From Bacteroidales bacterium (GTDB taxonomy: Bacteria > Bacteroidota > Bacteroidia > Bacteroidales > F082), in assembly GCA_015488735.1 (NCBI GenBank), contig WFNG01000128.1, positions 1 to 32,582 of the forward strand: 32,582 nt of DNA, in the 5' to 3' direction. Below the pieces are notes generated by a model, which saw only the letters and a program-made list of their open reading frames with translations, was not told the origin of the DNA and ran no database searches. This document shows positions 9,387 through 13,503 of this stretch, piece by piece (the stretch's first letter is position 1; every line of letters starts with the position of its first letter). The position numbers and the translations under genes are program-made.

Positions 9387-9704
9387 TTACTGCAATATTG
9401 CTCGGTCATGGCGAAGGAGTAAGACGGACTGGAAGGCTCTTTTAGCATTTTTGGACAGTGGGTAAGCTTTGCGCCAAAAAACCTTTTCAGACGAACATAT
9501 ATCCCTAATACGAGCTAATAGTTCATCGAAATAATTTCCATCTCCTGCTTGTTTCAGTATATCATCGTTCATTGTGGAACGCGATTTTTGAAACAATTGG
9601 CCCATTTGGCCAATAGTCAGCCAAACGGTTTCTTCTTCCAAACGGACATCAATTTTTGTCTGTCCGTCTTCGGTTTGGTATAATAGTAGTTCTGAGTTGG
9701 TCAT
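9387..9704 (-). pseudogene. Internally deleted RhuM-family (virulence/RM-associated) remnant
   Basis: N-terminal LLLYQTEDGQTKIDVRLEEETVWLTIGQMGQLFQKSRSTMN joins directly to the central RhuM-like DDILKQAGDGNYFDELLARIRDICSSEKVFWRK; the segment normally between them and the C-terminal half are missing. Confidence 0.7.
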
Positions 9705-9705
9705 C

Positions 9706-12700
9706 TTAATTTCCCTCTATAATATTAATTTCCTCCTCCGTCAAACCATACAACTCATAAACCATTTGGTCTATTTCTTTGTCCGTTTTTTCTATTTCGG
9801 ATTTTAGTTTTTGGGCTTCCCTCGATTCCAAAAGAAAATATTCTTCCCATTCTGCTTCCTGCGAGAGCGAGAGTTTTATTTTCTTTTTACGCAATTCTTT
9901 AATAAAATTAGAGAATGAAAGCAGGTACCAGTCTTGCAGTTTTTTTGGGAGAGTTTCCATCTCAAATTTACGCTGCATTGCACGTTGGAACTTAGTGACC
10001 AGAGCTTGCAAATTATCAGTTAGCCGGGTTTGTTCTTTTGCATATTGTGCCAGTGTGGCCGTTTGTTCTTTATTGGCTTGCGGAACAGGAAAATGTTCGA
10101 AATAAACCTTGCGAATTTCTCGTGTTCCACCTTGAAGTTCGGGGCAATTGTACCAAATCCAAAGTTTTGCTAACGATGAGTTCAAGAGAGCTGTAAGAAA
10201 TAAAAGAGAAACTGAATTGTTTTTAGCGGTGAGAATAAAACTTTTGTCGTTTCCTAATATTCCACTTTCATCGTACATAAACGGAAATACCGAAGTCATA
10301 TTCGGATAAATAATTTTTGGTTTATTAAACTCCTGATTGTATGCAATACTATCCTGGGTTTCAAACCACCTGCCTCTTGTTTTTTTGCGTGAACCTTTGT
10401 CTCCGGTTTGTTTTAGGCGGTCGTATCCAAACGATAGCAAATGTTCTTTGATGGCCGGAAAACTTTCAATATCTAAATTAAGAGATGGAAAAGTAGTTAT
10501 CAAATACTCACTACCTGTTATTCCATAAGGAGAAATATCCCTGCCACGCACCATCGGTTTAATAATTTCATTACTTTTTGCATCGGCAGCAATTAGGTTT
10601 TTTCTGGTTTCTGCATCAATATAAAAGGCATCGTTATATCCAGTAAGTATTCCACGATAAATGGATACTGGCAAGTCCTTCAATTCAATACCCTCTCTGG
10701 ACATTTTTGTAAGTTTCTGAGCATCGGCATAAGGTTGAATGCTCCAGTTGTTTTCGCCAAAATTATTGGAAGAATAACTGTATAAGTTTGTTTTTACTTC
10801 TGAAAGGAAATCGCCATAATACGTTTTTCTATTTAGCGACAGAACTTCTACCTGTTTGTTAGCTTTACTTTTTTGAGTAACGAAAATGCACACGTAAGTA
10901 GTAGCTTCATCAAAAAACTGTATATCGCCAAAGTTTAGTATTTGTCGCAAACCAGTTTTCGATAAAAATTTCCGAAGTGGTTTACCATAGGCAACAATCA
11001 TCCATTTATTGGGCATAATAAACGACTGTAACCCTCCTTCATTCAGTAATTTGTAACCACGTTCAGTAAACAGACAATACAAATCGGCTCCTTTGTGGAA
11101 TGTTTCATAAGCACAACTCGCCAGTTTATCGCTCATTTGTCCCATTGACTGGAGTTGTACATACGGCGGATTACCAATCACCACATCGAAACCACCTTTG
11201 TATTCGGCACGGAATGCGTGTTCTTTTGTACATAGAAATTCCTTTTTTAGCTCTTCTATTCTTTCGCTTTTAGGTAGTTCGTGTTTTACGCGGTTATTTC
11301 GAATATATTCTATTACATTATTTAGATATTTTTCGTCTTTTATTTCGGATTTTCCGAACTTCTGCGTCCAGAGGGAATTATATTTTTCTTTTTTCTTTTC
11401 GGTATCGGTACCAGTACCGGTACCGGACAAGGGGACATGTCCCCTTGTTGTGCCCGTAGCACTCGTAGCAGTAGAAGGTATCGTTATACCTTTTTCTATA
11501 TTATATCTTCTTCCACTTACGGCTTTTATTTTTCCCACTATTTTCGGCAGTTCTTCCCGTTCGCACACCAGTAGCAGGTGCATATGGTCGCCACAGATAT
11601 TATATTCGATTATGTCAATGGGATAAATCCCATTGTTGTCAAGTTTGCTTTCTTTTACTATTTCGGCAATGGTTTTCGTTATTGTTATTTCATCTTCCTC
11701 TGTTAGCCAGATGGCCTCACCTGTCTTTACATGATTGTCGAACATTCGTTGCGAGTATCTCGAATTATGTGTTGCAGAAGTAATATGCCATGCTCTTTTC
11801 TCTTTTTTACTGAATACAGTAGGAAACTCTTTATACCAGTTAAAAGCCTTATCGCCTGCAACTTCAGGATCGTCAATTAGTGAGTTTCCACATTTTATGC
11901 TGTTACTAAGTGTATTGAGTTTTCGCCCTTTTTGGGCAGTACGTAACCAAAGTGAGAGTTTGGCAATTTCAACTGATTCTTCATTCAGATCAACACCAAA
12001 AATATTTTTTTCAAGGATGTCAGTGGTGATGTCGGAAAATATAATTGCCCCGCCAAAGAGCCGGGTCCGCAATTCATCAATTTTCCGATGTTCGTTTATG
12101 AGAAATTCCAATGCCTGATTCAAAAACGCACCGGATCCACAAGCAGGGTCAAGAATGGTTAATTTTAAAAGCCAGTTTCGGTATTCATCCAGTCTTTTGT
12201 CGAGTGCCCTTACAATGTCTTTTTTACGGTTCTTTCGTCCTTTGGCATATTCTTCGTCAACAATTTTTAGTTCAGTTCGTTTTTCGTTGCATAGTTTTCC
12301 AACCGTATTTTCTACAATGTATTTGGTAATGTATTTCGGGGTGTAAAAGATGCCATCCTTTTTGCGCTTGCTGGCACTGGCAACAGTGCCAGCCAACGGG
12401 TCATGACCCGTTGTTGCGGCTATTGCCGCAATCTCGCCCAATGAATGCTCAAAAATATGCCCCAGGATATTTACATCAACATCCGTGTCAAAATCGTAAT
12501 TACTTAATTTTAGTGTGTGTTCATGCAGAATTTCATCGTCAATTATAATATTGTCTAATACTTCATCGGGTTTAAAAAGTCCGCCGTTGTACGCATATAT
12601 TTCAGCACGATTTCCACTTTTGGGTCTGCCCACATTCAGTACATGAAAGTATTTTTTAAAGGTGTAGTAAAGCGGTTTGGCATCTCCAAAATCTACATCG

Positions 12701-13503
12701 TCTTTCCATTTATCGATAATTTGTGAAATGGAATTGGGCGGAACTAACAATCTGTCTTCGGCAAAAAAGATAAACAGAAAACGGTCGAGCAGTTTTTGTG
12801 TCTTTTTGAACAGTAAAAGTTTATCTGTTTCGGGATTGTTTTTTATAAGATTATTGTAAATCGCCGTTCTGAATGTTGAGTAATCGGCATACAATTTTTT
12901 TGTGATGTTTTCTTCCTGTAAAACCGATGAGTTCTTTATTTTTAATGGCAAATCATTCAGCAGGTTATCTTTTGCCAAACAAAGCCACATTAACGAGAAC
13001 TGTTCTTTTGTCAGGTTGAACAAATCGAAATCAACATGGTCAACGGCATCTTGAATGTAAAAGCGAAGTTTTTCAAAATTCGAGGTAATCACATAAATAC
13101 ATTTCGGATGGTGGTTTTTGTATCCGAATGCCTGTGTTTCAATTTTATCTAAATCAGATGTATTTGTACCCTTCAATTCGATAACTGCGGTTGCATATGG
13201 TTCTGCCAAGGGGTCATGACCCCTTGTAAGGATTGCACCGTCAGCTTTTTTACTGTTCGATATATTTTTTAATTCGGTAGTCAGGTTAAAATTCGGTTCA
13301 GGATTTAATGTATACCCTAAAATATTTACAAATAATTCCCGTAAAAACCCCTCCTGAAATTGTTCTTCTTTTGAGTTTCGAATGTTTTCCTGTCTTTCTG
13401 GATTTCCAAAATAGCTCTGAAAATCAGCATATTTTTTGTCGATTAATGCAGCGTTAAGGTCGTTTAAATATTTGTTTTCTACCGATTTTTGAAACAAACT
13501 CAT
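9706..13503 (-). CDS. Type IIG restriction-modification enzyme (Eco57I-like N6-adenine methyltransferase with C-terminal specificity domain) containing a nested HUH/Y1 domain
   Basis: Motif I TILDPACGSGAFLNQALEF; motif IV GGFDVVIGNPPYVQLQ; DGIFYTPKYITKYIVENTVG; TRD-like C-terminus; uninterrupted 1265-codon ORF. Confidence 0.92.
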   Translation of the reverse strand: MSLFQKSVENKYLNDLNAALIDKKYADFQSYFGNPERQENIRNSKEEQFQEGFLRELFVNILGYTLNPEPNFNLTTELKNISNSKKADGAILTRGHDPLAEPYATAVIELKGTNTSDLDKIETQAFGYKNHHPKCIYVITSNFEKLRFYIQDAVDHVDFDLFNLTKEQFSLMWLCLAKDNLLNDLPLKIKNSSVLQEENITKKLYADYSTFRTAIYNNLIKNNPETDKLLLFKKTQKLLDRFLFIFFAEDRLLVPPNSISQIIDKWKDDVDFGDAKPLYYTFKKYFHVLNVGRPKSGNRAEIYAYNGGLFKPDEVLDNIIIDDEILHEHTLKLSNYDFDTDVDVNILGHIFEHSLGEIAAIAATTGHDPLAGTVASASKRKKDGIFYTPKYITKYIVENTVGKLCNEKRTELKIVDEEYAKGRKNRKKDIVRALDKRLDEYRNWLLKLTILDPACGSGAFLNQALEFLINEHRKIDELRTRLFGGAIIFSDITTDILEKNIFGVDLNEESVEIAKLSLWLRTAQKGRKLNTLSNSIKCGNSLIDDPEVAGDKAFNWYKEFPTVFSKKEKRAWHITSATHNSRYSQRMFDNHVKTGEAIWLTEEDEITITKTIAEIVKESKLDNNGIYPIDIIEYNICGDHMHLLLVCEREELPKIVGKIKAVSGRRYNIEKGITIPSTATSATGTTRGHVPLSGTGTGTDTEKKKEKYNSLWTQKFGKSEIKDEKYLNNVIEYIRNNRVKHELPKSERIEELKKEFLCTKEHAFRAEYKGGFDVVIGNPPYVQLQSMGQMSDKLASCAYETFHKGADLYCLFTERGYKLLNEGGLQSFIMPNKWMIVAYGKPLRKFLSKTGLRQILNFGDIQFFDEATTYVCIFVTQKSKANKQVEVLSLNRKTYYGDFLSEVKTNLYSYSSNNFGENNWSIQPYADAQKLTKMSREGIELKDLPVSIYRGILTGYNDAFYIDAETRKNLIAADAKSNEIIKPMVRGRDISPYGITGSEYLITTFPSLNLDIESFPAIKEHLLSFGYDRLKQTGDKGSRKKTRGRWFETQDSIAYNQEFNKPKIIYPNMTSVFPFMYDESGILGNDKSFILTAKNNSVSLLFLTALLNSSLAKLWIWYNCPELQGGTREIRKVYFEHFPVPQANKEQTATLAQYAKEQTRLTDNLQALVTKFQRAMQRKFEMETLPKKLQDWYLLSFSNFIKELRKKKIKLSLSQEAEWEEYFLLESREAQKLKSEIEKTDKEIDQMVYELYGLTEEEINIIEGN
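11200..11808 (-). other. In-frame nested IS200/RAYT-like Y1 (HUH) transposase domain (about 203 codons) within the Type IIG enzyme
   Basis: AWHITSATHNSRYSQRMF..., HUH motif GDHMHLLL (HMH at 11578-11586), IKAVSGRRYN, LWTQKFGKSEIKDEKYLNNVIEYIRNNRVKHELP (Y1-like helix). Flanks read FNWYKEFPTVFS and GGFDVVIGNPPY, typically near-contiguous in Eco57I-family enzymes. Confidence 0.82.
11427..11448. repeat. REP-like perfect 22-bp palindrome inside the nested HUH domain
   Basis: ACAAGGGGACATGTCCCCTTGT equals its own reverse complement; abutted by a 10-bp palindrome CCGGTACCGG at 11417-11426. Confidence 0.9.
12370..12393. repeat. Perfect hairpin with GCAA loop, first of three abutting hairpins
   Basis: GCTGGCACTG-GCAA-CAGTGCCAGC, 10-bp stem. 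Confidence 0.85.
12394..12413. repeat. REP-like perfect 20-bp palindrome inside the RM gene
   Basis: CAACGGGTCATGACCCGTTG equals its own reverse complement. Confidence 0.92.
12414..12431. repeat. Perfect hairpin, third of three abutting hairpins
   Basis: TTGCGGC-TATT-GCCGCAA, 7-bp stem. Confidence 0.75.
13207..13226. repeat. REP-like perfect 20-bp palindrome inside the RM gene
   Basis: CAAGGGGTCATGACCCCTTG equals its own reverse complement. Confidence 0.92.

Follow-up and report, generated by a model that had tools for sequence, protein, structure and literature searches.

The window, by which we mean the whole stretch of 32,582 nucleotides that was analysed, carries on its minus strand a Type IIG restriction-modification (RM) gene with an insert of the HUH type. 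The gene and the motifs of its restriction and methyltransferase (MTase) parts are located as follows.

9706..13503, minus strand: Type IIG RM gene with HUH insert, 1265 aa (Pfam, PADLOC)
13168..13248, minus strand: PD-(D/E)xK-like region KADGAIL...AVIELKG, residues 86-112, intact around a palindrome
12124..12150, minus strand: MTase motif I, DPACGSGAF
11155..11196, minus strand: MTase motif IV, GGFDVVIGNPPYVQ (NPPY; residues 770-783), directly past the insert

The reading frame is intact over its 1265 aa with no internal stop, as an earlier note made from the sequence had stated, and the domains follow the order N-terminal nuclease, gamma-type adenine MTase and TaqI_C-type specificity domain. 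Around the insert, Pfam matches Eco57I (E=5e-48) and TaqI_C (E=8e-14), and the PADLOC Type IIG model PDLC03609 aligns protein residues 1-566 with profile positions 1-555, which places the HUH segment outside the ordinary Type IIG enzyme. Motifs I and IV, the specificity domain and the nuclease, which we take from KADGAIL...AVIELKG (motif only) to be PD-(D/E)xK-like, are combined in a single polypeptide, and on this sequence evidence the window protein is assigned to the Eco57I-like Type IIG enzymes. It has the same domains and motifs as PDLC03609 but differs in an extra domain of ~200 residues before motif IV. Immediately downstream of the RM gene, a short ORF (9387-9704, minus strand) matches part of a RhuM-family profile (60-98 of 252) and is probably a truncated or rearranged RhuM gene.

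Identity of the inserted domain

The earlier note had also read an HUH/Y1 domain lying in frame in the catalytic core of this enzyme, and Pfam, the modelled fold and homologs with an empty site all agree with it.

11200..11808, minus strand: in-frame Y1/HUH (RAYT-like) insert, residues 566-768, just before MTase motif IV (profiles, fold, empty-site comparison)
11578..11589, minus strand: HUH metal-binding motif D639-H640-M-H642, invariant in 59 relatives
11305..11307, minus strand: candidate catalytic tyrosine Y733 (EYIRNNRVKHEL), invariant in 59 relatives

The insert is flanked by FNWYKEFPTVFS (residues 554-565) before it and GGFDVVIGNPPYVQ after it. Pfam Y1_Tnp matched with E=1.3e-8 in the whole protein and with 2e-10 for the segment alone, exceeding the curated cut-off, and NCBIfam REP_Tyr_transpos (NF047646) gave 42.2 bits (E=7e-11), which is under its 80-bit cut-off. 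When the segment was modelled with AlphaFold2 together with 59 relatives, an autonomous fold was obtained (pLDDT 85.3, pTM 0.80) in the order beta-alpha-beta-beta-alpha, a disordered linker (model residues 116-138, where a palindrome is encoded), and then a beta strand and the Tyr helix. The best Foldseek matches in the PDB were ISDra2 TnpA, ISHp608 TnpA and the E. coli RAYT-REP complex 4er8, and all top matches were IS200/IS605 TnpA or RAYT proteins (E 2e-4 to 1e-3, probability 1.00); TM-scores were modest (0.36-0.44 on query, 0.5-0.65 on target) because of the linker and insertions. In a larger model of the MTase with the insert (pLDDT 75, pTM 0.46), HUH stays a separate fold and the interdomain arrangement is uninterpretable. 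Alignment positions D75, H76, H78 and Y169 (window D639, H640, H642 and Y733) were unchanged in 59/59 relatives, which bears out the HUH motif and late tyrosine of the earlier note, and W and K positions were likewise invariant among the 59 inserts. The HUH motif and tyrosine in a modelled Y1 fold thus assign the segment to the Y1/HUH superfamily (IS200/IS605-RAYT), as an intact domain whose catalytic residues are complete. Since HMM and fold matches are present and the segment is no ordinary part of Type IIG enzymes, neither of the two objections that the earlier note had raised against itself holds.

That note had called the domain IS200/RAYT-like. The RAYT/TnpA_REP-like half of the label stands, and the idea of a complete IS200/IS605 element was rejected: the insert borders lack bracketing terminal hairpins, the palindromes lying in the linker and host gene instead, so transposition as a unit is not supported. 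An intein was rejected as well, because by inspection the ends (KKEKRAWHIT at the start, HAFRAEY at the end) have no splice residues, neither Cys/Ser at the N-terminus nor His-Asn at the C-terminus. Elsewhere in the genome of the window there are two more tyrosine transposases (L164 and L165; C155 and C235 of G000), both of which read as full RAYT-type ORFs with NHxH and YIHNNP; none of the other Y1 genes in this genome matches the insert.

Distribution, gain and loss of the insert

Scanning GTDB contigs with a profile gave 184 relatives; the 80 that were kept come from Bacteroidota, Chlorobiota/Ignavibacteria, Cloacimonadota and Neomarinimicrobiota, and nearly all of them occupy one and the same position within one RM gene. 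In a phylum-wide sample, 6/395 genomes had a match, and 6/6 of these were again at this site, within long frames of RM size. This HUH clade is thus largely specialised to one host gene and to the site just before motif IV, and the window gene, far from being an isolated fusion, belongs to a set of about a hundred such genes. When homologs were compared at this boundary, as the earlier note had proposed, 83 had the insert and 35 did not, and the site was always identical. Most insert-less homologs have their flanks joined as EFPxVFxK-GGFDVV and a few have a short unrelated loop between them, in keeping with that note's statement that these flanks are normally nearly contiguous. One insert-less homolog (L182) carries a short repeat, NPSLRGTKQS (DNA CCGTCATTGCGAGGAACGAAGCAATC), at the exact HUH insertion site, indicating that the loop accepts other repeats too.

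On a host tree built from the first 565 residues, the insert changed state 22 times, at least 19 of them on well-supported branches, and the N-terminal identity of insert-less homologs reached about 78%. In one allele pair, L044 with the insert and L030 without it, DNA identity was 95.7% over the 1.7 kb upstream and 90.7% over the 1.4 kb downstream, and the insert was the main difference. Near the junction, insert-bearing alleles read FCWEKEFPK and insert-less alleles FNWQTEFPK, a distinct upstream flank of ~36 nt being common to the insert-bearing alleles; the module therefore appears to travel with these ~36 nt, as recombination would predict. With allele pairs more than 90% identical, cis-action, homing and the effect on restriction are directly testable.

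The window insert is 82% identical to that of L060, with a host N-terminus of 60%, and 50% identical to that of L091, with a host of 87%. Forcing the host clade {window, L091, L100} onto the insert tree cost 105 log units (AU test, p-AU 0.017), and between the window and L061 dS was 0.29 for the HUH core and 0.81 for the host N-terminus. These sequence comparisons show differing histories of insert and host gene. The dN/dS of the HUH core was 0.01-0.27 in 12/13 pairs, the remaining, very close pair giving 0.83 with few changes, which at the codon level shows purifying selection on the HUH domain.

A few HUH genes stand alone. Three of them (L070, L112, L116) are followed downstream by GFDVVIGNPPY remnants, and L070, L095 and L130 start like the RM gene (M..FQKS). 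With these RM remnants around them, the solo HUH genes descend from embedded copies whose RM part disappeared while the HUH frame remained open. Together with the low dN/dS of the HUH core, the open solo ORFs argue for selection on the nuclease itself. We regard it as highly improbable that the insert is inert, an old transposase relic which a loop tolerates and which hitch-hikes with the RM gene. Such a relic would fit the optional insert and the RM core conserved around it, but the HUH and Tyr residues are invariant, dN/dS is far below 1, HUH ORFs are intact where the RM gene is deleted, and palindrome turnover, described below, is continuing. Solo HUH genes in two genomes (L112, L116, L122) lie beside thyA and/or dihydrofolate reductase-like genes, and this shared neighbourhood suggests a common ancestral location.

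Phage or plasmid carriage of the module was considered and rejected, as no relatives were found in the viral contigs, plasmid or phage collections searched.

Palindromes in the gene and their confinement

Absent from the earlier note are the in-frame palindromes of the window gene, which are listed below.

13207..13226, minus strand: REP-like perfect palindrome CAAGGGGTCATGACCCCTTG, nuclease beta-turn between the D and ExK elements; encodes TRGHDPLA
12370..12431, minus strand: palindrome cluster in the pre-MTase loop, TTGCGGCAATAGCCGCAA, REP CAACGGGTCATGACCCGTTG and GCTGGCACTGTTGCCAGTGCCAGC; replaces the loop of homologs
12394..12413, minus strand: REP-like perfect palindrome CAACGGGTCATGACCCGTTG, linker before the MTase domain; encodes TGHDPLAG
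11427..11448, minus strand: REP-like perfect palindrome ACAAGGGGACATGTCCCCTTGT, disordered linker of the HUH domain; encodes TRGHVPLS
11400..11425, minus strand: imperfect palindrome CGGTACCGGTACTGGTACCGATACCG, same HUH linker, adjacent to ACAAGGGGACATGTCCCCTTGT

Three near-identical REP-like palindromes of 20-22 nt thus lie in frame in one gene. In the whole genome (2.88 Mb) these three copies, all in the RM gene, were accompanied by only one site with 3 mismatches, and a dispersed REP family in this genome was rejected for that reason. Both body palindromes of the window have the core GTCATGAC and the linker copy has GACATGTC; given this mismatch, and since GTCATGAC copies are extragenic in relatives, the body copies could come from another RAYT.

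Across the gene family (perfect palindromes with arms >=10 and GC >=0.4), we found 128 palindromes in the 83 insert-bearing genes, 0 after codon shuffling and 2 in the 35 insert-less genes; 72/83 insert-bearing genes had at least one, and 11/83 had none by this criterion. Within the N-terminal body only, the figures were 25/80 with the insert vs 2/34 without it (Fisher p=0.003, ignoring relatedness), and with independent pairs on the tree the link between palindrome and insert ran in the right direction but was weak and not significant (4.8 vs 0.7 pairs, median p 0.22). Of the 27 genes with palindromes in both the body and the insert, 18 had one 8-nt core common to the two, 4.5 being expected (0/5000 permutations). 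In other genes these loops hold palindromes with other cores (GACATGTC, GGCATGCC, AGCATGCT, ATTAAT, TTGCAA, TTTAAA and TTAAC types) and in more than one reading phase, so that repeated insertion or conversion must have occurred. Two insert-less RM genes (L037 and L190) have a palindrome in an RM loop and are surrounded on the tree by insert-bearing relatives; these palindromes are probably scars left where the HUH insert has been lost.

We looked for the pattern CAAGGGNNCATGNNCCCTTG in 172 family genomes and 46 insert-bearing genomes. In the family genomes, 18/26 sites fell in RM-HUH genes, solo HUH genes or insert-less relatives (reversed-pattern control, 0), and in 45 insert-bearing genomes (without G931) 56/69 sites fell in the RM-HUH or solo HUH gene, which makes up about 0.1% of a genome. 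With the REP-rich G931 left out, 81% of the CATG-core copies in the searched genomes were in RM-HUH or solo HUH genes. G931, the insert-bearing genome of L099, is the exception to this cis-confinement, having 42 dispersed palindrome copies with, among those listed, mostly the core GTCATGAC. Among the remaining copies in the family is CCGGTAGGGACAAGGGGTCATGACCCCTTGT, a GTAG-tagged REP that lies outside genes and so links the palindrome with the REP class. The foot tag GT[AG]G is clear in only a minority of the copies; extragenic relatives have it too, and the window copies lack it. The GTAG tag as a universal mark was accordingly rejected. Six loci in relatives (L154, L155, L157-L160) are extragenic GGTAG-tagged REPs with the same palindrome, several of them at ORF ends, e.g. 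that of an efflux adaptor-like gene.

Palindrome hotspots are the nuclease loop, the stretch that precedes the MTase and the one that follows the specificity domain. A domesticated module that serves the RM enzyme, in which nicks at palindromes of the domain borders would promote exchange of specificity domains and diversify target recognition, might be expected to leave such a pattern, and C-terminal halves do vary strongly among genes with similar N-termini while the HUH domain is under purifying selection. However, insert-less genes swap C-terminal halves too, solo HUH genes persist without an RM enzyme, and palindromes also build up in the HUH linker itself, a place from which no swap of specificity results, so we consider this role unlikely. 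Palindromes with matched cores, in cis in the encoding gene, might also be bound as DNA or mRNA hairpins by the HUH domain and tune RM expression without any mobility. This seems to us very improbable, because the palindromes lie far from the start codon, at widely varying positions and in numbers from 0 to 4 or more per gene, and the catalytic Tyr is invariant though binding alone would not need it. A bifunctional defence enzyme, whose HUH part would sense or nick hairpins in invading single-stranded or replicating DNA and so add to restriction, would agree with one polypeptide having intact MTase, nuclease and HUH motifs; we hold it to be very improbable, as the cores within a gene change together, which points to self-directed substrates, the insert is freely gained and lost, and the viral contigs, phages and plasmids searched had no relatives. 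Among the roles suggested in the earlier note, self-mobilisation is favoured, because the gene itself holds REP-type palindromes and the insert comes and goes repeatedly along the host tree; specific evidence for target recognition or defence was not found.

A proposed RAYT-like module with an RM gene as host

We presume, with somewhat better than even confidence, that the insert is a RAYT/REP-like module which has the Type IIG gene as its host, acts mostly in cis and spreads between alleles by recombination. A RAYT/TnpA_REP-like HUH nuclease would have adopted the RM gene, its self-contained domain being extruded from a tolerant loop before MTase motif IV, and as a separate domain in such a loop it should still allow the RM enzyme to be made and to fold. 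Its substrate would be the REP-like palindrome of its own linker and of loops in the same gene, whose hairpins, extruded in single-stranded DNA, may be cut at the foot by the HUH metal site and the Tyr. Action mostly in cis would make palindromes accumulate in the encoding gene, where selection would keep their frame and loop position. Homologous recombination or gene conversion, perhaps promoted by nicks at the palindromes, would carry the module and short RM flanks from allele to allele, always to one fixed site, and the RM gene would supply persistence and horizontal transfer. More tentatively, and with rather less than even confidence, we propose a class of intragenic mobile element in which an HUH nuclease, resident as a protein domain in RM genes, mobilises its palindromes within that gene only and, through recombination that the HUH enzyme stimulates, homes to a single conserved site of alleles lacking the insert.

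The common view of RAYTs is of stable genes in single copy, with REPs dispersed over the genome. The module shares with RAYT/TnpA_REP (E. coli, 4er8; NF047646) the Y1 HUH fold, core-matched palindromes near or inside the HUH gene, so that cognate palindromes are associated with the gene as in RAYTs, and GGTAG-tagged relatives of the window palindrome in related genomes. It differs in that the domain is in frame in a Type IIG enzyme with palindromes mostly confined to that gene, the clade of the window has YIxxNRxxHxL instead of Y...NP, the score is under the NF047646 cut-off, and the GTAG tag is mostly absent. A RAYT-like domain thus appears to persist inside a mobile defence gene in which its palindromes are concentrated, which bears on how RAYTs persist, and Type IIG annotation may hide a putative nicking activity. 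Inteins and other homing elements resemble it as optional in-frame inserts at one fixed conserved site that apparently spread with flanking sequence; here, in contrast, the enzyme is HUH and not a homing endonuclease, splice residues are absent, and homing is proposed only.

TnpA_Y1 subclass 2.4 is abundant in Bacteroidetes and has REPs within the transposase gene that give rise to a variable internal segment (Quentin et al. 2018, PMC6006769), a feature shared with the present genes. That subclass, however, has NH[IFV]H and YIxNNP vs DH[MVI]H and YIxxNR here, which places the insert outside it, and its internal segments lie between beta3 and alphaC (PMC6006769), whereas here the linker past the helix following HUH is used. 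The same survey discarded unusually long fusion proteins and did not mention a restriction or methylase fusion. We found no HUH/RAYT domain fused to a Type IIG enzyme or methyltransferase in the openly licensed literature, the wider absence being uncertain, and came across no account there of an RM enzyme that contains a RAYT-like domain and has palindromes in its gene; REPs inside transposase genes and other ORFs are known. Intragenic GTAG/CGTC REPs, including Rickettsia palindromic elements, are short palindromes in ORFs that encode extra residues, often in DNA-related genes (PMC3733652). The palindromes described here likewise lie in ORFs and encode residues; the former are scattered over many genes, whereas ours share a gene with an HUH enzyme. 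Outside RM genes, we observed the same palindrome in frame in an MBOAT-like acyltransferase gene (L156), where it encodes TRGHAPLTLPG.
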